From: Myxococcota bacterium
GTDB lineage: Bacteria > Myxococcota_A > Polyangia > Polyangiales > Polyangiaceae
DNA: 64,000 nucleotides
Assembly: GCA_963169915.1 (NCBI GenBank)
Contig: CAUJEM010000138.1
Span: forward strand, 60,001 to 124,000
Direction of reading: 5' to 3'
In this document: positions 43,492 through 58,081 of the stretch, one piece after another
How positions within the stretch are numbered: position 1 is the stretch's first letter
Layout of the letters: each line of letters begins with the position of its first letter
Made by a program: the position numbers and the translations under genes
Notes under the pieces: generated by a model
Databases searched by the model: none
What the model was told of the DNA's origin: nothing
Seen by the model: the letters and a program-made list of their open reading frames with translations, nothing else

Positions 43492-44109
43492 ATGCGCGCT
43501 CTCATCGGGATGAGCCTCGGGCTGGCGGCTTGTGGGCCCGCCACCGCCCCACCCCCTCAGCCGCCGCCGCCCTCGGCCGAGGCCGAGGTGTCGCTGTTGG
43601 ACGCTGGCTGGGCGGAGGCCGTCAGCCCTCGACAGCAGCTCAGCGTGCCGCTGCCCGACTACGCGAGCTGGCGGCTCGACGACTCCGGACCGAGCTTCTT
43701 CGTGACGACCCACCTCCCGACCCAGACGCGGCTCATCGCGGGGACGTGGCGTGAGGCACGGAGCGTCTCCCTCGAGCAGTGCGCCGCCACGGCGCGCCTC
43801 AGGCGCCCAGCGGAGTTCACCCTCGAGGGGGAGGCCCTCGACCGCCAGCCCTGGCGCGCCCCGGCAGATTTCGCGGGGGAGCTGGTGCTCGGCGTGAGCG
43901 CCGTGCCCGGTGGCTTCGAGGGCCGCGCGGTCGCGGTGGGCCACGACGTCGGCCGCTGCTACGCGGCGGCGCTCGTGACGAGGACGAAGACCGAGCGAGA
44001 GCTGGGCGACCGCCTGGCGCTGCTCACCGAGCGCAGCCTCCAGGGCTTGCGCCTGCGCGCGGTGGGTGAGCGCGCGACCGGCGCCTCGGGGCGCGTCAGA
44101 ACGCCGTGA
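43492..44109 (+). CDS. Lipoprotein of unknown function
   Basis: A 205-residue protein starting MRALIGMSLGLAACG (lipobox LAAC, Cys at 14), with a short Pro-rich linker and a compact beta-rich domain (about 30-200) containing two later cysteines. The AGELVLGVSAVPGGFEGRAV-like stretch resembles the small secreted domains seen near other myxobacterial lipoproteins. Its 3' end overlaps the M16 peptidase gene on the other strand by 14 bases. No family is recognised. Confidence 0.6.
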   Translation: MRALIGMSLGLAACGPATAPPPQPPPPSAEAEVSLLDAGWAEAVSPRQQLSVPLPDYASWRLDDSGPSFFVTTHLPTQTRLIAGTWREARSVSLEQCAATARLRRPAEFTLEGEALDRQPWRAPADFAGELVLGVSAVPGGFEGRAVAVGHDVGRCYAAALVTRTKTERELGDRLALLTERSLQGLRLRAVGERATGASGRVRTP

Positions 44110-45379
44110 TCCGCCGCTCGATGCGGCGCTGCTCGGCGGGGCTCGAGCGGCCCACGGCGACGATCGACATGCCGGCCGCCTGAAAGCAGCGCTGAGCAGC
44201 AGCCTGCACCTCGCGCCGCGAGACGGCCCGGAGCTGCTCGAGCCGCTCCCGAGGCGAGCGCCCGACACCCGACAGCTCCCCGAGCGCCAGGAAGCTAGCC
44301 AGCGCCGGCGGGTCGTCGAGGAGCTCATCGAGCTGCCACTGGACGCGCCGCTTGGCCTTGTCGAGCTCTGCCTCGGTGGGGCCCTCCTCACGGAGCTGCT
44401 CGAGCAGCCCCAGGATCAGATCCAGCACCTCGGGCGTGCGCTCGTGCGCGGCGCTCGCCATCACGTCGAAGAGCCCTACGCCGCGGTAGGCCTCGTAGCT
44501 CGCCGACACGTCGTAGCAGAGCCCACGCTCGTCGCAGATGCGGTGGTAGAGCCGGGTGGACATCCCGTCATCGAGCACGCGGACGAGCAGCTCGGTCGCG
44601 GGCTCCGCCGCCTCGCCCTCGCCGGGGGCACGAAACCCGACGCGCAGCTCCGTCTGGCTGAGCTCGTGCCGCACGTAGCGCCAGCGCGGCGCGCGCTGCC
44701 GCGGGGGCGCCGGCTTGGGGCGCACCCGGCCGCGCGGCAGTCCGGCGAAATGACGCTCGAACAGCCGCAGCACCGCGCTGGGCCTCACCGGCCCCGTGAC
44801 CGCGACGACGGTGTTGTCCGAGGTGTAGAGCCGCCGGTGATGAGCGCGGACACGGCGCTCGGTGAAGGCCTCCACGTCCTCGTAACGTCCGGTGATGGGC
44901 ATGGCCAAGGCATGCCCCTCGAAGCTCAGCCCCATGAGCAGCTCACCGGAGTCGATGAGCTGCCCCTGGTCGTCGTACAGCTCCAGGATCTCCTCGCGCA
45001 CGATGCCCCGCTCCACCTCGAGCCGCGTGAAGAGCGGCTCGCGGTAGGTCTCCCCCAGCAGCGCGACGGCGGGCGTGAAGGTCTCGGGCGGCACCGCCAG
45101 CTCCACGTTGCCGTGGTCCACGTAGGTCGCCGCCGCCAGCGTCCCTCCGAGGCGCTCGAAGCCGAGCGCCTGCTCGTGCGCCGAGGGTGCGCTCGGGATC
45201 CCCCGAAACAGCATGTGCTCGAGGAAGTGGCTGAGGCCGCGCTCCCGCGGCGCCTCATAGAGGGGGCCCGCCCCCAGCCGTACGTCGATGGCCACCCGGT
45301 GCGCGCTCGGGAGCGGCGCGACGACGAGCCGGAGCCCCTCCGCCGTCTCGTGGCGCAGGGGCTCACCCGGAACGGTCAA
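44096..45379 (-). CDS. M16 family zinc peptidase
   Basis: A 427-residue insulinase/mitochondrial-processing-peptidase-type enzyme. The inverted zinc motif HFLEH is at 51-55, with further acidic residues in the VREEILELYDD stretch as the distal ligand region. The C-terminal half has the second, non-catalytic M16 lobe, including the GLCYDVSASYE segment. No signal peptide is seen, so it is probably cytosolic. TTG at 45379 shares TTGA with the stop of the isomerase gene upstream, and the open frame beyond it is a shadow of that gene. Confidence 0.88.
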   Translation of the reverse strand: MTVPGEPLRHETAEGLRLVVAPLPSAHRVAIDVRLGAGPLYEAPRERGLSHFLEHMLFRGIPSAPSAHEQALGFERLGGTLAAATYVDHGNVELAVPPETFTPAVALLGETYREPLFTRLEVERGIVREEILELYDDQGQLIDSGELLMGLSFEGHALAMPITGRYEDVEAFTERRVRAHHRRLYTSDNTVVAVTGPVRPSAVLRLFERHFAGLPRGRVRPKPAPPRQRAPRWRYVRHELSQTELRVGFRAPGEGEAAEPATELLVRVLDDGMSTRLYHRICDERGLCYDVSASYEAYRGVGLFDVMASAAHERTPEVLDLILGLLEQLREEGPTEAELDKAKRRVQWQLDELLDDPPALASFLALGELSGVGRSPRERLEQLRAVSRREVQAAAQRCFQAAGMSIVAVGRSSPAEQRRIERRITAF

Positions 45380-47064
45380 TCGTCCTCGCCAGGACGCTTG
45401 GGGGGCTGCGCCAGCTCCTCGCTCGTCTTGAGCTTGCCCTTGGCGGACAGCTTGAGCTGCTCCACGTAGCGCACCAGCGCGTCGAGCTGCTTGAGCGCGG
45501 CGAGCTGGCGCATCAGCGGGAGCTTGTCCTTCTGGAACTCCTCCTTGGTGGCGAGGTTCTTCTCCTTGAGCTGAACCACGGCGAGCCCGTCGCTCGTCTC
45601 GATGGGCTCGGCGAGCAGGGCCTCCGGCGCGCTCAGCTCGAACACCTGGAGCGTGAGCTGCGAGGCGCCCGAGGCGTTCGGGATGGGATCTCCGCCGATG
45701 GAGAACGGAGCGCTGACCTCCACCTTCGGGCGCTCGGCGGTCTCCCAGCCCTCCGCGGGCTCCGCCGCTCCTGGCCCCTTCTTCGGCGCCAGCACGACCT
45801 TCGACACGAGCTCCCGGGTCGCGTCGTCGAGCTTGGCCCCTGCCTTCGCGCGCGCGATGAGCTCCTCCCCGAACTTCCGTGCGAGCTCCTCGGCGCGCAG
45901 GCGGGCCATCAGCCCGCGCGCGACGAAGCGCCGCCCGGTCCCCTCCAGCTTCGCCTCGGGCACCCGCTCGATGAGCTGCAGCAGGTGAAAGCCGCGCGAC
46001 GTCTCCACGATGCCGGATCGCTTGCCCGGCGCCAGCTTCTCCGCCGCCGCCGCGAGCTCCTTCCAGCCTTCGCCGTAGCTCTCCGCGAGGCAGCCGATGT
46101 CTCCGCCGAGCACCGCGCCGCCACCGCTGCCGGCGCGCCGTGCCTCCCACTCGAAGGGCGTGCCCTTGGCGAGGCTCGCCTCCGAGGCCTCGAGCTGCCG
46201 GCGCAGCTCCGCCTTCTGATCGTCGTCCGTCCCGTCGAAGGGCATCGCCAGCTCACGCACGCGCAGACAGCCCTTCGTCCAGTCCTTCTTGGCGGTGTTC
46301 CAGGCGTCGTTGACCTCGGAGGCGTGCTCCTTGGCCCAGGCGTCGACCGCGGCATCCGACTGATCGACCGCCCACTTGGCGAACCAGTCGCGCCGTAGCT
46401 GCACGCTGCGCACCACCGCCTTCGAGCGCTCACGCTGGAACTGTAGGAAGGCCTCGGACTCGCTGACGCGGACGCGCGCTCGGACCAGCTCGCGCACGCG
46501 CGCGGCGAGCAGCTCCTTGCGCTGGACTTCCTTGAATTCCTTCGGTCCGCGCCCGGTGATGCTGCGCACGACGCGCTCGTACAGCTTCACGTCGAAGGCC
46601 TTGGTGGCCGAATTGTAGACGGGCAGGGTCCGGATGAGCTCGGCCCCGAGCCCAAGCTGGGGGGCGAGCATCTGCAGCTTGCCGAGGGGCAGCGAGACGT
46701 GGGCTCGACCCTCGAGCAGCTCGTCCTCGATCTCCGCGTCGCTGATGCTCAGCCCGAGCCGCGCCGCCTCGATGAGCAGCAGCTCACGCTCGACGAGACC
46801 GTCGAGGACTTGCTGGTTGATGTTCAGGGCCTTCTGGCGCGAGGCGGACAAGCCTTGCGGGATGATGAGCCCCGCGGCCGTGAAAAACTCGGCCTCGGGC
46901 ACGCAGCGGCCCTGCACCTCGACAGCGCACTTGGAGGCCAGGCTCAGCCCGCTCGCCCCCCGCCCGCTGCTACGAAACTCCAGAGCGAACGAGATCGCGA
47001 TCAGAAACACGATCGCGCCCATCGCGATCTGCGCGGGGCCTCCTCGGCGAAACAGGCTGAGCAT
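45376..47064 (-). CDS. PpiD/SurA-like peptidyl-prolyl isomerase
   Basis: A 562-residue protein anchored by an N-terminal helix (about 12-30), with a SurA_N-like chaperone region (about 45-215) and a parvulin-type domain (about 250-380; GGDIGCLAESYGEGW and GFHLLQLIERV match the rotamase landmarks). A second, less clear segment follows at 430-530. It should help fold envelope proteins on the periplasmic side. ATG at 47064 is chosen; upstream extension lacks homology. Coupled by TTGA to the M16 gene, which may process or clear its clients. Confidence 0.8.
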   Translation of the reverse strand: MLSLFRRGGPAQIAMGAIVFLIAISFALEFRSSGRGASGLSLASKCAVEVQGRCVPEAEFFTAAGLIIPQGLSASRQKALNINQQVLDGLVERELLLIEAARLGLSISDAEIEDELLEGRAHVSLPLGKLQMLAPQLGLGAELIRTLPVYNSATKAFDVKLYERVVRSITGRGPKEFKEVQRKELLAARVRELVRARVRVSESEAFLQFQRERSKAVVRSVQLRRDWFAKWAVDQSDAAVDAWAKEHASEVNDAWNTAKKDWTKGCLRVRELAMPFDGTDDDQKAELRRQLEASEASLAKGTPFEWEARRAGSGGGAVLGGDIGCLAESYGEGWKELAAAAEKLAPGKRSGIVETSRGFHLLQLIERVPEAKLEGTGRRFVARGLMARLRAEELARKFGEELIARAKAGAKLDDATRELVSKVVLAPKKGPGAAEPAEGWETAERPKVEVSAPFSIGGDPIPNASGASQLTLQVFELSAPEALLAEPIETSDGLAVVQLKEKNLATKEEFQKDKLPLMRQLAALKQLDALVRYVEQLKLSAKGKLKTSEELAQPPKRPGEDD

Positions 47065-47143
47065 GGTCGGGCGCCGGCGATTACCACGCGCTCTGGCGTG
47101 GGTCCACGCCCAGAACGCTCCGCGCCGGTCGCGCCGCGCCGCT

Positions 47144-47593
47144 TCACCTGCCGTTGGGCAGCGCGACGCGCGCGAGCTCGAGCACGGCGCCGAGGGTCTG
47201 CTGGAGCCCCTCGAGGCCGTCCAGGGCGCGGACGAAATTGACCTCCACCCAGAGATCGAGCTGCTGGCGCTCGTCGCTGGGATCGGGGATGGGCACCCAG
47301 ACCACGTCGACCTCCACGAAGCCCCGTGCCCGCAGGATCGCCCCCTGCTGACGCGCCCGCGCTTCCAGAAACGACTCAGTTTCCCCTGGGAAATCACTCT
47401 TTTGGGCCCGCACACGCACGCGGAGCGCCAAGCCGGGCGCGGCGAGCACGGCCAGCCCGCTGTCCATGAGCAGGTTCTCGCGCACCCGCTCGGCGAGCAG
47501 GACGCGGTCCGGGAGCGTGCGAAAGACCTCGAAGCCCCAGGATTGTAAGGTCTTTTTCAGATCCTTCGGGGTGGGCGTGGGTGGGGTCGTCAT
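47144..47593 (-). CDS. Conserved-looking protein of unknown function
   Basis: A 149-residue soluble protein beginning MTTPPTPTPKDLKKTLQSWG. Alternating strands and helices fill residues 20-130 (NLLMDSGLAVLAAPGLALRV and VWVPIPDPSDERQQLDLWVE). There is no signal peptide, Cys or catalytic motif. ATG at 47593 is used; earlier starts lie in an intergenic stretch. It is divergent from the PilZ-like gene and precedes the isomerase gene by 79 bases. No family is recognised. Confidence 0.6.
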   Translation of the reverse strand: MTTPPTPTPKDLKKTLQSWGFEVFRTLPDRVLLAERVRENLLMDSGLAVLAAPGLALRVRVRAQKSDFPGETESFLEARARQQGAILRARGFVEVDVVWVPIPDPSDERQQLDLWVEVNFVRALDGLEGLQQTLGAVLELARVALPNGR

Positions 47594-51316: not shown

Positions 51317-52081
51317 TCAGCGCTTCACGGCCCGCGGGCCCTTCGGCGGCGCCGAGACGGGCGCCTTCGTCTTCGCCTTCGGTGCGGCCTTCGTCTTCGG
51401 GGCAGCCTTCGCTGGGGGCGCCTTCGCCTTCGGCGCGGCCTTCGCCTTCGGCGCGGCCTTCGCCTTCGGCGCGGCCTTCGCCTTCGGTGCGGCCTTCGCC
51501 TTCGGCGCGGCCTTCGCCTTCGGTGCAGCCTTCGCTGGGGACGCCTTCGGGGCGGCCTTCGCCTTCGGTACAGCCTTCGCTGGGGACGCCTTCGCCTTCG
51601 GGGCGGCCTTCGCGGGCGTAGCCTTCGCCTTCGGTGCAGCCTTCGCCTTCACGGGCCGCTGCGCAGCGCCTGCACGCGCCGCCGGGGAGCCTCCGGCGCG
51701 GCGCGCCAGGGTCTCCGCGACGGCGGCCTTCAGGGCGCTGAAGTCGAACGGCTTGTCGAGATAGGCGTCGGCTCCGTAGAGCGGGGAGGTCATCTCGTTG
51801 AGGTGCTCTCCAATCCCGGTGAGCATCACGACGCCCGTGTGGGCCAGCTCCACGGATCTCCGTACCTTCTGGCAGACCTCCCAGCCCGTCATCCCGGGCA
51901 TCATCACGTCGAGCACGATGAGCTGCGGCAGGTGGGTGAGCGCCAGCTCCCACGCTTGCTCGCCGTCCGCCGCCTCCACGACCTCATAGCCGGCGTTGCG
52001 GAGGTGGGTCGAGGTGACCGCCCGCATGGCGGGCTCGTCATCAGCGATGAGAATGGTCACGGGGTGCTGGGATTGGGGCAT
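51317..52081 (-). CDS. Response-regulator receiver domain fused to a histone H1-like Lys/Ala/Pro tail
   Basis: A 254-residue protein. Residues 1-125 are a complete receiver domain: Asp14/Asp15, phospho-acceptor Asp58 in LIVLDVMMPG, Thr88 and Lys110 in DKPF. Residues about 130-254 are a highly basic tail built from PKAKAA units encoded by an 18-base repeat (about 51419-51655 on the minus strand). H1-like tails of this composition bind DNA non-specifically in several bacterial nucleoid proteins. A receiver joined to such a tail is unusual; phosphorylation might tune DNA binding. No kinase gene is adjacent. Convergent with the MBL gene, 17 bases apart. Confidence 0.88.
   Translation of the reverse strand: MPQSQHPVTILIADDEPAMRAVTSTHLRNAGYEVVEAADGEQAWELALTHLPQLIVLDVMMPGMTGWEVCQKVRRSVELAHTGVVMLTGIGEHLNEMTSPLYGADAYLDKPFDFSALKAAVAETLARRAGGSPAARAGAAQRPVKAKAAPKAKATPAKAAPKAKASPAKAVPKAKAAPKASPAKAAPKAKAAPKAKAAPKAKAAPKAKAAPKAKAAPKAKAPPAKAAPKTKAAPKAKTKAPVSAPPKGPRAVKR
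51419..51532 (-). repeat. 18-base tandem repeat encoding the H1-like tail
   Basis: About six near-identical 18-base units (core GCGGCCTTCGCCTTCGGC on the plus strand) run through this stretch and degenerate further to about 51655. All keep the frame of the receiver-tail gene, so slippage would change tail length without frameshift. Short tracts flank each unit without spacers, which distinguishes it from a CRISPR array. Confidence 0.85.
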
Positions 52082-52258
52082 GAACGGGAGCGCTCCTCCG
52101 GCGCATCACAGATCACCGACCCGGCTCTGGTCAAGCGTCGTCAGCACTGGGTCGAAAGTTCCTCGCGTCAGGCTCCCGAGCGGCACGGCGCGAGGGAACT
52201 CCGGGCCTACCCCGGCATTCCCGCTATCATGGACGAGCTCTAGCCCGGAACCTCGCAG

Positions 52259-54223
52259 GTGCCCGATCCCGACCCCCGCCTCCAGCCCCTCCGGCGCGCG
52301 GCCGCCAGCGCGCTGCGTCGCGCTCGGCTGAACGCGGCGCTGGCACGTGCTGCGCGCCTGCTGCCCGCGCCGCTGCTCACGGCCGCCGGGCTCATCGCGT
52401 GGGCGCGCCATCAGGGGCGAGACGCCTGGGAGCTCGGCCGTGGCGGCTGGCTCATCGCCGCGCTCGGAGCGCTCACCGTGGGGAGCGTCCTGCGCGCCGG
52501 GCTGCGACGCCGACCGCCAGCGCTGGGCGCCGTGCTGCTCGACCGGCACCACCGGCTCGCCGATCGCGTCGCCACGGCGCTCGAGCTCGGTGCGCGCGCG
52601 CCGGCGGAGCGCACCCCGCTGATGGAGGCGGCCATCAGCGACGCCTCGGCGCGCGCCGAGGAGCTCTCGCCGCGTGCCGCCGTGCCCCTGCGGCTCCCCC
52701 GCGAGCTGCTGCTGGTGGGCGCCGCAGCGCTGGCCTGCTTCGGGGCGGCGCGGCTCCACCCCGCCCCCGCCCCCACGCCAGCAGTCGCGACGCCAGCGCC
52801 GCGGCTAGAGCCCCTGCTGCTCCCCGAAGACGATTTGGACGCCTTCAGGGAGCGCGTCGCGGCGCTCGGCGACCAAGCGAGGGATCCCGAGGTGGCCGCG
52901 GCCGTCCGCCGCTACCATCAGCTCCTGGAGGACCTCGCCGCCCAGCGGATCGACCGGAGCGAGGCCTTCCGGCGCCTCACGGCCCTGCGGCAGGAGCTCG
53001 AGCGCGGAGCTCGGCCCGAGCCCGCGGAGCACGAGGCGGCGCTCCGCGCCATCGCGAGCGAGCTCTCTCGGAGTCGTGCCGCCGCGTCGATCGGCGAGGC
53101 CTTGAACGAGCAGCGCCTCGCCGACGCGGAGCAGGCGCTGCGAGCGCTCGCCGAGCGGCTGCGCCGCCGCGAGGCACCCCCCAAGAAGGCCGAGCTCGAC
53201 CTGCTGCGCGCGTCGCTCGAGCGCGCCAGCCGCGTGGTCGGCGAGCGCACCGCGGCGGCCACGGCGGCGCGCGACCGCGCGGACGGCGAACGGCGGCGGC
53301 TCCTGAAGCGGCGCGACGAGGGGCACGCCTCGGAGGCCGAGCGGCAGGCCCTGTCCAAGCAGGAGCGTCAGCTCGAGCGCCTCGAGCGCGAGCGCGAGCG
53401 CCTCGAGCGCGTCGAGCGCGAGCTCTCTCGGCTGGACCGGGAGCTGGCGGAGGCCGCCGCGGCGCTCCTGCGCGAGCTGGGTGAGGCCGCTCAGCACCTC
53501 GAGCGCGCCGCGGAGGATCTCCACCGCCAGGCCGAGCAGCAGCTGAGCGACGCCCAGAAAGAGCAGCTCAAGCGCCAGATCGAGGAGCTGCGTGAGCTGC
53601 TCCGCCAGCAACGGCAGGCACGCCCGGAGCAGCAGGAGCGCCTCGAGCGCTTCCGCGAGCGCGCGCGCGGCCAGCAGCGCGGGCAGCCGGGGCGAGGCTC
53701 CGGGACGGGCGACCCGGAGGGCTCGGCGCAAGCTCGAGGCGAGGAGGGCGCCGGCCCGCCTGGCCAGCGTCAGGCCCCTGCGGGTGAAGGCCAGGGCGCA
53801 CCGCGCGCGCGCCAGCCGGGGGAGCTGCGCCTCCAGCGTGGCGGGAGCGGCGCGCGGCTCCCCGGCGGCGAGGGGACGGCGCAGGCCGGCTCGCGGCCCG
53901 CCGCGGGCGAGCGCCCAGGGGAGCCCGGCGCGGGCGGCGAGCAGTGGGGGCAGGGCCATGACCCCAACGTGGCCGGGGAGCGCACGGAGCTCGCCGGCAG
54001 GACGCGCGACGTCAGCGCCGCCGGCGTGGACACGGGGGAGGGCACCGCGTCGAGCCAGGTCATCCAGGCCGCGGCAGAGCGGGGCTTCCGCGGCCAAGGC
54101 TACCGCAAGGTGTATACGGACTATCGGCACGTCGCGGAGGCCGTGATGCACCAAGACGAGATCCCCGCTGGCTATCGCTTCTACGTGCAGCGCTATTTCC
54201 AGCTCATCCGGCCAAGGGAATGA
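52259..54223 (+). CDS. Membrane coiled-coil protein of the MoxR/vWA operon
   Basis: A 654-residue protein with three hydrophobic segments in the first 165 residues, a Pro-rich hinge, then a long helical coiled-coil region (about 180-470) dominated by Arg/Glu/Leu/Ala. A Gly/Gln/Ala-rich low-complexity segment (about 475-590) and a compact C-terminal domain follow (ATGEGTASSQVIQA-like start, then YRKVYTDYRHVAEAVMHQD and IPAGYRFYVQRYFQLI). The tail is reminiscent of proteins found beside MoxR/vWA genes (DUF4175-like), but the assignment is tentative. GTG start at 52259. First gene of the five-gene operon. Confidence 0.7.
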   Translation: MPDPDPRLQPLRRAAASALRRARLNAALARAARLLPAPLLTAAGLIAWARHQGRDAWELGRGGWLIAALGALTVGSVLRAGLRRRPPALGAVLLDRHHRLADRVATALELGARAPAERTPLMEAAISDASARAEELSPRAAVPLRLPRELLLVGAAALACFGAARLHPAPAPTPAVATPAPRLEPLLLPEDDLDAFRERVAALGDQARDPEVAAAVRRYHQLLEDLAAQRIDRSEAFRRLTALRQELERGARPEPAEHEAALRAIASELSRSRAAASIGEALNEQRLADAEQALRALAERLRRREAPPKKAELDLLRASLERASRVVGERTAAATAARDRADGERRRLLKRRDEGHASEAERQALSKQERQLERLERERERLERVERELSRLDRELAEAAAALLRELGEAAQHLERAAEDLHRQAEQQLSDAQKEQLKRQIEELRELLRQQRQARPEQQERLERFRERARGQQRGQPGRGSGTGDPEGSAQARGEEGAGPPGQRQAPAGEGQGAPRARQPGELRLQRGGSGARLPGGEGTAQAGSRPAAGERPGEPGAGGEQWGQGHDPNVAGERTELAGRTRDVSAAGVDTGEGTASSQVIQAAAERGFRGQGYRKVYTDYRHVAEAVMHQDEIPAGYRFYVQRYFQLIRPRE

Positions 54224-54259: not shown

Positions 54260-55258
<999 letters not shown>

Positions 55259-55268
55259 GCCGCGCCGC

Positions 55269-56207
55269 ATGGGCCTGCTCGCTCGCCTCCGCCCTCGTCG
55301 TCGCGCGCGGCCCGCTGCGCACGAGGACGCGGGCACGCTCTTCGACGAGGCGTTCCTCCGCAAGCTGGAGAGCCTGGCGCTCGTCAGTCGCAAGCTGCAC
55401 GCTGGCCGCCAACGCGCCGAGCGCCGCACGCGCAAGGCCGGCAGCGGCGTCGAATTCGCCGACCACCGTGACTACGTCCCCGGCGACGACTTCCGGCGCA
55501 TCGACTGGAGCGTCTACCAGCGCTTCGGGCGACTGCTCGTCCGACTCCATGAAGAAGAAGAAGATCTTGGCATCTACTTCATCGTGGACTGCTCGAGCAG
55601 CATGGCCTTCGGGGGCGGCGCGAAATTCGATCAGGCGCGGCGCCTCGTGGCGGCGCTGGCTTACGTGGGGCTCGCCAACCTCGACCGCGTCACCGTGGTG
55701 GCGGTGCGGGACGGCGTCGCCGAGCGGATGGCCCCCACGCGCGGCAAGGCGCGGATCTTCCGCGTGCTGCGCTTCCTGTCCCGGCTGGAGGCCCGCGGGA
55801 GCACGGATCTGGGCGCGGCGCTCGGCGCCTTCGCCGCGCAGCACCGGCGCAAGGGGCTCGCGGTGCTGGTGAGCGATCTGTACGACCCGGCGGGCTTCGA
55901 GCGCGGCATCAACGTGCTGCGCTACCATCGCTTCGAGCCCTACATTGTGCACCTCATCGACCCCGCCGAGGAGCGGCCCGCGCTCCTCGGCGACGTGCAG
56001 GTGGTCGACTGCGAGACCGGCGACGAGCGCGCCGTCACCGTCACCGAGGCGCTCCTCGGCCGGCTTCGGGACGCGCAGCGAGGCTGGCGCGGGGAGGTCG
56101 CCCACTTCTGCGCGAGCCGCCACGTCCCGTATTTCGCGGCGCCCACGACCCAAGCCTTCGACGAGCTGGTGCTCAAGGTGTTCCGTCAGGGAGGGTTTCT
56201 GCGTTGA
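55269..56207 (+). CDS. DUF58 (vWA-fold) protein
   Basis: A 312-residue protein whose GVEFADHRDYVPGDDFRRID stretch and following WSVYQRFGR are the DUF58 landmark, followed by a vWA-like fold with DCSSSM (MIDAS-type DxSxS). It commonly pairs with MoxR. ATG at 55269 is chosen over an upstream frame start because it gives the known basic N-terminus. It lies 10 bases after the ATPase stop and ends by overlapping the next start (TTGA). Confidence 0.88.
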   Translation: MGLLARLRPRRRARPAAHEDAGTLFDEAFLRKLESLALVSRKLHAGRQRAERRTRKAGSGVEFADHRDYVPGDDFRRIDWSVYQRFGRLLVRLHEEEEDLGIYFIVDCSSSMAFGGGAKFDQARRLVAALAYVGLANLDRVTVVAVRDGVAERMAPTRGKARIFRVLRFLSRLEARGSTDLGAALGAFAAQHRRKGLAVLVSDLYDPAGFERGINVLRYHRFEPYIVHLIDPAEERPALLGDVQVVDCETGDERAVTVTEALLGRLRDAQRGWRGEVAHFCASRHVPYFAAPTTQAFDELVLKVFRQGGFLR

Positions 56208-58081
56208 GGTGGCTCGGGCTCCCGCTCGCGCAGCTGCTGCCCCTGGCGGCGGGGGCCGCCGGGGCGGTCGTGCTGCTCTACGTCCTGAAGCTCCGGCGGC
56301 GCCGGGTGGTGGTCCCCTACTCGATCCTGTGGCAGCGGGTGCTCCGGGACCGTGACGCGTCCACCTGGTTCTCGCGGCTCAAGCGCCTGCTCTCGCTCCT
56401 GCTGCAGCTGCTGCTACTCGCCTTGGTGTTCGCGGCGCTGGGAGATCCACGGCTCACGGCGAGCTGGGCGGACGGGCGCAGCGTCGTGATCTTGGTGGAC
56501 GCCAGCGCGAGCATGCAGGCCACCGACGTGCTGCCCTCCCGCCTCGCGGGCGCGCAGGTCAAGCTCCGGGAGATGATCGCTGGGCTCGGGGCGAACGATC
56601 GGCTGCTCATCGCGCAGATGGACGCGAGCGTGACCCCGCTCAGCCCGCTGAGCGGGGATCGCGCGGAGCTCGAGCGCGCCGCAGAGCGCCTGCGCGCCAC
56701 CGACACGCGCGCCGATCTTCGGCGTGCGCTCGGCTTCGCCGCGGACAGCCTGCGCGGGGTCGAGCGGCCGGAGGTCGTCGTGCTCAGCGACGGTGCCCTG
56801 GGCGACGCCGCCGCTGCGGGCGAGGGCCTGCTCGAGGGCGTCCCCGTCAGCTGGCTCAGGCTCGGCAGCGAGGGCAGCAACGTGGGGCTCACCGGCCTGT
56901 CCGTCCGACGCTACCCGCTCGACAAGTCGCGCGCGGAGGTGCGGCTCCAGCTCGACAACGCGGGAGCGGAGCCGGCCACCGTGGAGCTGTCGCTGTACGG
57001 TGACGGGCGCCTCATCGACGTCAGCACGCTCGAGCTGAAGCCCGGTGAGCGGCTCCCGCGGTACTACCAAGATCTCGCCGGCGCCGACCGGACGCTCGAG
57101 GCGGTCGCGCGGGTCACGCAGGGGCGCGATCTGCTCCCGGCGGACGACCGCGGCTACGCGCTCGTCCCAGAGCGCCGCCGGGCGCGCGTGTGCGTCGTGA
57201 CGCGCGGCAACACCTACCTGGAGGCCGCCCTGCTGCTCGACGAGTACCTGGACGTCACGCTGGTGCCCCCCGAGCGCTACCCCGTACGCGGCGGCTTCGA
57301 CGTCACGCTCTTCGACGGCGTCGCGCCCCCCGTCGCCGAGGACGCCGGCGCCGCCCTCTATCTGGCGCTGCCCGCGCAGGGCGGCCCGCTGCGGCGCGGG
57401 CGGCGACTCGAGGGCTTCGGCTTCGACAGCTGGGACGCCAAGAGCCCCGCGCTGCGCTACCTGGCGCTCGGTGACGTCCAGGTGGCCACGGGCTACTCGC
57501 TCCGCCCGGAGCCGGGCGACCGCGTCCTCGGCGCGAGTGACCAGGGGCCCTTGCTCGTGGGCGGACGCCGCGACGGACGGCCGTTCCTGGCGCTCGGCTT
57601 CGATCCGCGCGACAGCGACTGGGTGCTGCGTCCGGCGTGGCCGCTGTTCATCCTGAACGCCATCGACTCCTTCGGCGAGGACGACGCGAGCTTCTTGTCG
57701 AGCTACCCGACCGGGCAGCCCTGGTACCTGCCCGTCCCGGCGCCGCTCGAGCGCGTGTCCCTCCTCGGCCCCGCTGGGGACGAGCGTGAGGTGCCGGTGC
57801 GCGGGGGACACGCCGTGGTGTTCGGTGAGCACGCGGGCTTCTTCACGCTCCGCAGCGCCGCCACCACCCCGCCGTTCGAGAGCCGCTTCGCCGCGAACCT
57901 CGCCGCGCCGGAGGAGAGCAAGATCTTACCACCCGAGGCGCTCGACCTCGGGCGGCCGCTCGCGCCGCTCCCCAGCTTCGACGCGAAGGCGCGACGTGAG
58001 CTGTGGCACTACCTGCTCTTGGCCGCCGCGGTGCTCTCCGCCAGCGAGTGGCTGAGCTACCACCGGAGGCTCACGGTATGA
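56204..58081 (+). CDS. BatA-like vWA membrane protein
   Basis: A 625-residue protein with two N-terminal membrane helices (about 8-28, 62-80), a vWA domain whose MIDAS DASASM is at about 98-103, and a C-terminal hydrophobic helix. The region between 240 and 600 is beta-rich and includes the RARVCVVTRGNTYLEAALLL segment, typical of the BatA/BatB-type family that links MoxR to the envelope. TTG start shares TTGA with DUF58 stop; its own stop overlaps the next start (ATGA). Confidence 0.85.
   Translation: MRWLGLPLAQLLPLAAGAAGAVVLLYVLKLRRRRVVVPYSILWQRVLRDRDASTWFSRLKRLLSLLLQLLLLALVFAALGDPRLTASWADGRSVVILVDASASMQATDVLPSRLAGAQVKLREMIAGLGANDRLLIAQMDASVTPLSPLSGDRAELERAAERLRATDTRADLRRALGFAADSLRGVERPEVVVLSDGALGDAAAAGEGLLEGVPVSWLRLGSEGSNVGLTGLSVRRYPLDKSRAEVRLQLDNAGAEPATVELSLYGDGRLIDVSTLELKPGERLPRYYQDLAGADRTLEAVARVTQGRDLLPADDRGYALVPERRRARVCVVTRGNTYLEAALLLDEYLDVTLVPPERYPVRGGFDVTLFDGVAPPVAEDAGAALYLALPAQGGPLRRGRRLEGFGFDSWDAKSPALRYLALGDVQVATGYSLRPEPGDRVLGASDQGPLLVGGRRDGRPFLALGFDPRDSDWVLRPAWPLFILNAIDSFGEDDASFLSSYPTGQPWYLPVPAPLERVSLLGPAGDEREVPVRGGHAVVFGEHAGFFTLRSAATTPPFESRFAANLAAPEESKILPPEALDLGRPLAPLPSFDAKARRELWHYLLLAAAVLSASEWLSYHRRLTV

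Follow-up and report, generated by a model that had tools for sequence, protein, structure and literature searches.

A receiver domain joined to a histone H1-like tail

The window, a stretch of 64,000 nucleotides from a genome of the Polyangiaceae (Myxococcota), carries a minus-strand gene whose product joins a phosphorylation receiver domain to a long tail rich in lysine, alanine and proline (K/A/P). The gene that a first-pass annotation had drawn at 51317-52081 was confirmed as real, with a complete open reading frame that begins with an ATG at 52081. Its features are listed here, where bare denotes orthologues that have no tail.

51317..52081, minus strand: full gene for the receiver and its H1-like tail, 254 amino acids; complete, real open reading frame
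52093..52099, minus strand: Shine-Dalgarno-like sequence GGAGGAG, 11 nt 5' of the ATG, read off the sequence
51719..52054, minus strand: receiver domain, residues 10-121 (Pfam PF00072, E=6e-24; AlphaFold2 model)
52025..52036, minus strand: residues 16-19 (E-P-A-M) at the start of alpha1, a consistent difference between tailed and bare orthologues
51908..51910, minus strand: Asp58, phospho-acceptor, present without exception in tailed (86 of 86) and bare (48 of 48) orthologues
51818..51820, minus strand: Thr88, switch residue, Thr in 85 of 86 tailed (Ser in the other) and 48 of 48 bare orthologues
51770..51817, minus strand: beta4-alpha4 segment GIGEHLNEMTSPLYGA, residues 89-104, strongly conserved; the model shows no helix here and is partly of low confidence
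51752..51754, minus strand: Lys110, the conserved receiver lysine, present in 134 of 134 orthologues
51320..51697, minus strand: H1-like Lys/Ala/Pro tail, residues 129-254, from composition and an extended, low-confidence model
51371..51650, minus strand: tandem repeat with an 18-bp period that encodes PKAKAA-type units, from repeat analysis

Response_reg (PF00072) is the sole Pfam match of the protein (84.8 bits, cut-off 30.2). The receiver is intact, with Asp58, Thr88 and Lys110 present as first annotated, and its acid pocket is completed by Asp14 and Asp15, of which Asp15 is invariant among 134 aligned orthologues (its column is missing in one bare row). In an AlphaFold2 model built from an alignment of 23 sequences only, pLDDT is 91-98 in most blocks of residues 11-130, 86 for residues 101-110 and 56 for residues 91-100. 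The fold matches that of receivers, and the nearest ones by Foldseek and sequence search are OmpR/PhoB-type and CheY-like. The alpha4 region of receivers is usually variable. Here, with tailed and bare orthologues taken together, the beta4-alpha4 segment has a mean top-residue frequency of 0.86, exceeded only by the phosphorylation loop, and the stretch after beta4 (TGIGExLNEMTSPLYGAD), which has an internal proline, is among the best-conserved parts of the domain. Conservation of the alpha4 segment above most of the receiver is what would be expected of a surface that contacts a partner.

The tail consists of 126 residues (25% Lys, 40% Ala, 18% Pro, no acidic residues, net charge +36). Its description as a Lys/Ala/Pro sequence with PKAKAA units holds, and only its start, first placed at residue 126, had to be moved nearer to residue 129. 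It is extended in the AlphaFold2 model, at low confidence (pLDDT mostly 52-65). Being long, disordered, rich in Lys, Ala and Pro and poor in acidic residues, it has the properties by which bacterial H1-like tails (AlgP/PhaF, HU extensions) are recognised. Such tails are known in bacteria on granule proteins, HU and CarD. RGRP AT-hook repeats, as in CarD/HMGA-type tails, were not found when the sequence of the window protein was read. A scan of the whole 4.19-Mb genome with a KAAPKAKA-type DNA pattern gave 11 overlapping matches, all of them in the array of this gene.

The reading frame of the tail is supported by the same architecture in 74 complete orthologues with other repeat DNA, by a GC3 typical of the genome (tail 0.89, receiver 0.91) and by synonymous differences between the repeats, in which alanine is encoded by GCG, GCC, GCT and GCA. 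A frameshift in the tail, which the first-pass annotation had named as a refuting outcome, and a mistranslated tail were therefore rejected for the window gene.

Distribution and origin of the tail

In a receiver search of 59 relatives, the E-values of orthologues (<1e-33) stood well apart from those of paralogues (>1e-24), and a receiver profile of 15 sequences detected orthologues in 89 of 108 Polyangiaceae genomes (E<=1e-30), including Sorangium cellulosum So ceGT47 and a Polyangiaceae metagenome bin. A search of genome contigs returned mostly generic receivers, together with So ceGT47 and a Polyangiaceae bacterium. Several Polyangiaceae genomes that are at least 90% complete, three of genus g6 among them, had no orthologue match, which makes the protein dispensable in part of the family.

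Every Polyangiaceae orthologue whose C-terminus was read runs on into a tail. Among the 74 that are complete, tails range from 68 to 489 amino acids (median about 139), and the last 60 amino acids have a median net charge of +24, positive in 73 proteins, the exception being a frame change. The repeat unit differs among genera (PKAKAA in the window, PAKKA in a sister species, KKKAP, KKPAAKKAA, KPAAK and others); thus, it is the composition of the tail that has been kept and not its sequence, and a basic tail has been retained through this turnover. An acidic block lies between the receiver and the basic end in 14 of 86 tailed proteins and recalls CarD/HMGA. Two members, one of So ceGT47 (L177; G124:C1:7048096-7060479) and one other (L048), switch frame inside the repeat-coded tail, which turns the Lys/Ala sequence into a Glu/Gly/Arg-rich or Arg-rich one. 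The basic reading resumes in the neighbouring frame, which identifies these as recent frameshifts (repeat slippage) or as sequencing or assembly errors.

Homologues exist well beyond the window, as the first-pass annotation required of a genuine architecture: they are tailed in the Polyangiaceae and bare across the Myxococcota. The receiver is present in 165 of 379 Myxococcota genomes drawn (E<=1e-36; Polyangiaceae in the draw included). Orthologues read from outside the Polyangiaceae are tailless, with 123-156 amino acids (one has 162, counting the stop); this bare set consists of orthologues with loci in hand, the longest open frames among them. Orthologues with long open frames outside the family (e.g. 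G159, G311, G361 and G340) were considered as candidates for tails, and nearly all proved bare on reading, the sole exception being an Arg-rich extension, not of the K/A/P kind, on a short contig (L302). Three orthologues of family f8 (L031, L041, L042) have basic ends of 23-25 amino acids, possibly a weak and perhaps independent small parallel to the tail.

In a tree built from 134 receiver sequences (86 tailed and 48 bare, tail columns excluded), which has few columns and a weak inner order, the tailed proteins occupy one side of a single branch (SH-aLRT 97), and one change is needed. Because they lie on one side of one branch, the tree indicates that the tail was gained once, in the ancestor of the Polyangiaceae, and because the tailless receiver is found across the phylum, the tail is an added module and not the ancestral output of the receiver. 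Residues 16, 18, 19, 44 and 72 separate tailed from bare orthologues almost cleanly. Residues 18 and 19 match OmpR 15 and 16 by position, which are known kinase-specificity positions, and this suggests that the branch that gained the tail may also have changed its kinase.

A lineage-wide habit of Lys-rich tails was rejected, on the basis of 677 kb of the window genome and 674 kb around the family loci. No K/A/P-rich tail was found on any other receiver in the 677 kb, which hold most of the 48 receivers of that genome. The receiver is tailed in 52 of the 52 family loci examined, against about four other K/A/P-rich proteins in the same 674 kb, which excludes chance; four further K/A/P segments listed there are alternative-frame readings of the tail, judged by position. 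The only other K/A/P-rich segment in the 677 kb (L274:4472-5555) is near the N-terminal part of a non-receiver open reading frame.

The range of tail lengths, the turnover of repeats and the two members that are out of frame in the tail would all suit a passive, expansion-prone repeat that serves as a solubility aid or spacer and has no specific ligand. This is very unlikely, because neutral repeats would have been lost by some lineages, whereas all Polyangiaceae orthologues seen have the basic tail and none of the outside orthologues checked does.

Gene neighbourhood

The receiver gene is an orphan: a cognate kinase, which the first-pass annotation had hoped to find by genome context, did not emerge among the neighbours assigned in the 64-kb window. 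Divergent from the receiver gene are the genes of a putative envelope-stress operon.

52259..54223, plus strand: u654, the divergent neighbour, 654 amino acids, no Pfam match, beside the receiver gene in about half of family loci
54260..55258, plus strand: MoxR AAA ATPase of the linked operon (Pfam AAA_3, E=2.2e-62)
55230..56207, plus strand: DUF58 protein of the linked operon, from neighbour assignment
56204..58081, plus strand: VWA protein of the linked operon with a weak BatA N-terminal match, from neighbour assignment

The u654 protein, encoded beside MoxR, has a hydrophobic N-terminal part followed by a long Arg/Glu-rich probable coiled coil and a Gly-rich end. Elsewhere in the window, the listed open reading frames of an M16 peptidase (44096-46150) and a SurA-like foldase (45376-47415) share 775 bases; one or both of their starts are probably overextended.

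Of about 64 family loci, 33 have the u654-MoxR-DUF58-VWA operon beside the tailed receiver gene, either divergent, as in the window, or on the same strand with the receiver gene upstream (Sorangium and others). In genera without MoxR linkage, an SCP2-like gene (sterol-carrier fold, 140-146 amino acids) is found directly upstream of the tailed receiver on the same strand (L159, L160, L205, L210 and about 14 more loci). The bare receiver of families f5 and f10 is itself part of a Bat operon, between BatE-like and PpiC/SurA genes. At L033, L045, L215, L300 and other loci outside the Polyangiaceae, such an operon has BatE on one side of the bare receiver and two PpiC/SurA foldase genes on the other.

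The recurrent association with MoxR-VWA genes is suggestive of an envelope-stress context, and the receiver might act mainly on the adjacent Bat-like operon, for instance by binding MoxR, with DNA in a secondary role. The two arrangements beside tailed genes and the placement of the bare receiver inside a related operon favour such a role, which we nevertheless consider doubtful. The MoxR proteins of the f5/f10 Bat operon share only about 29% identity with those linked in Polyangiaceae, so different MoxR paralogues are involved in the linkage, and about half of the family loci, many of them short, are unlinked (e.g. those with the SCP2-like gene upstream). Action on MoxR would be compatible with tethering to DNA, since MoxR could be the partner of a tethered adaptor.

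Comparison with known systems and possible function

Single-domain receivers normally act only via contact with other proteins. Response regulators of the CheY, DivK and MrrA type likewise have an intact phospho-receiver and no folded output domain; the window protein adds the long H1-like tail and the unusual conserved alpha4 segment, and does not have PFxFATG. Membership in the FATGUY group of single-domain regulators (MrrA/SdrG), which bear a P[FIV]xFATG motif at beta4 (PMC5964349), was rejected, as the motif occurs in 0 of 134 orthologues and beta4 reads MLTGIGE. OmpR/PhoB regulators (RpaA, PhoP) have the nearest receivers by sequence and fold, but their winged-helix output has no Pfam match in the window protein, where the tail takes its place.

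Basic tails on regulatory proteins have precedents in the same phylum. In FrzCD of Myxococcus xanthus, a basic tail that is disordered and histone-like binds DNA with no preference for sequence and is required for the nucleoid clusters of the protein (PMC5716589). FrzCD is thus a signalling protein with a basic DNA-binding tail, as proposed here, but it is a chemoreceptor, its tail is N-terminal and of about 20-30 residues, and it has no receiver (PMC5716589). CarD of Myxococcus and Anaeromyxobacter has a C-terminal basic disordered tail, either HMGA-like or of the K/A/P H1-like type, sometimes preceded by an acidic block, and a tailless relative, CdnL, exists (PMC8156234, PMC9304148). The plan of a regulatory domain with a basic tail is shared, down to the tailless relative, but CarD has an RNA-polymerase-binding CarD_CdnL domain instead of a receiver and is reported from Cystobacterineae only (PMC8156234, PMC9304148); no Pfam match to CarD_CdnL_TRCF was found in the window protein. 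The tail itself resembles the long KPAA-type H1-like DNA-binding tails of AlgP/PhaF of Pseudomonas, proteins that differ in having a helical or phasin N-terminus, a role in granule organisation and no phospho-receiver (PMC9239181). An AlgP tail fragment and KPAA peptides bind DNA, and AlgP is enriched on polyphosphate granules, the spacing of which needs its tail (PMC9239181). DNA binding by such tails, as first suggested for the window protein, therefore has good precedent (AlgP, PMC9239181; CarD, PMC8156234; FrzCD, PMC5716589). Nothing relevant to a receiver with an H1-like tail was found in the open-access literature, and the word histone is absent from a survey of myxobacterial two-component systems. 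No named family with this architecture was found, in line with the first-pass annotation, and no earlier description of the pairing turned up.

The best explanation, to which we assign a probability of roughly 0.5, is that the protein is an orphan single-domain response regulator with an H1-like tail, gained once, that tethers the receiver and its partner to the nucleoid. A histidine kinase encoded elsewhere would phosphorylate Asp58, and the receiver would signal through contact of its conserved alpha4-beta5 face with a partner protein, presumably in the manner of the bare orthologues. The disordered, strongly basic tail would hold the protein on the nucleoid through sequence-independent DNA binding, with the result that the switch and its partner would act at or near DNA. 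Since the receiver is also conserved in proteins that lack the tail, its main task should need no DNA, and since the bare orthologue keeps an invariant active site and the conserved unusual alpha4, that task is probably protein-protein signalling. By analogy with FrzCD, CarD and AlgP/PhaF, the most likely role of the tail is to anchor this adaptor to the nucleoid, and a nucleoid tether fits a tail that is an added module better than a compaction protein does.

Control of DNA compaction by phosphorelay, the arrangement put forward in the first-pass annotation, is possible but less likely than a nucleoid anchor. The tail would then be the output of a phosphorylation-controlled nucleoid protein, and dimerisation of the receiver upon phosphorylation would make the tail bind with greater avidity, so that DNA is bridged or compacted or promoters are opened. 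Apart from the receiver, the protein has no module but the tail, which resembles the tails of AlgP and histone H1 (PMC9239181), and the gain of the tail was accompanied by changed residues at the start of alpha1, so that input may have been rewired along with output. Such an output role is unlikely, however, as orthologues without a tail are widespread and no less conserved, which points to a job of the receiver without the tail, and the model, from its alignment of only 23 sequences, lacks the ordinary alpha4 that a classical alpha4-beta5-alpha5 dimer would use. The proposal that a chromosome-wide DNA-binding protein switched by phosphorylation arose in the Polyangiaceae ancestor, through gain of the tail and a simultaneous change in the kinase contacts at the start of alpha1, likewise has a low likelihood. 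If true, it would connect two-component signalling directly to the architecture of the nucleoid.

Lys-rich tails may also bind RNA, ribosomes or polyphosphate. A polyanion other than DNA is a possible ligand here because AlgP, which has the closest type of tail, also associates with polyphosphate granules and needs the tail for their spacing (PMC9239181); the receiver would then be placed on granules or polysomes. We regard this as quite unlikely, as the assigned neighbours are unrelated to polyphosphate or translation and the myxobacterial precedents for such tails involve DNA.

The bare and tailed orthologues form a natural before-and-after pair that could show what a signalling protein gains from an H1-like tail. 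The tailed receiver, retained across a family of myxobacteria with large genomes, may link phosphorylation directly to the nucleoid.
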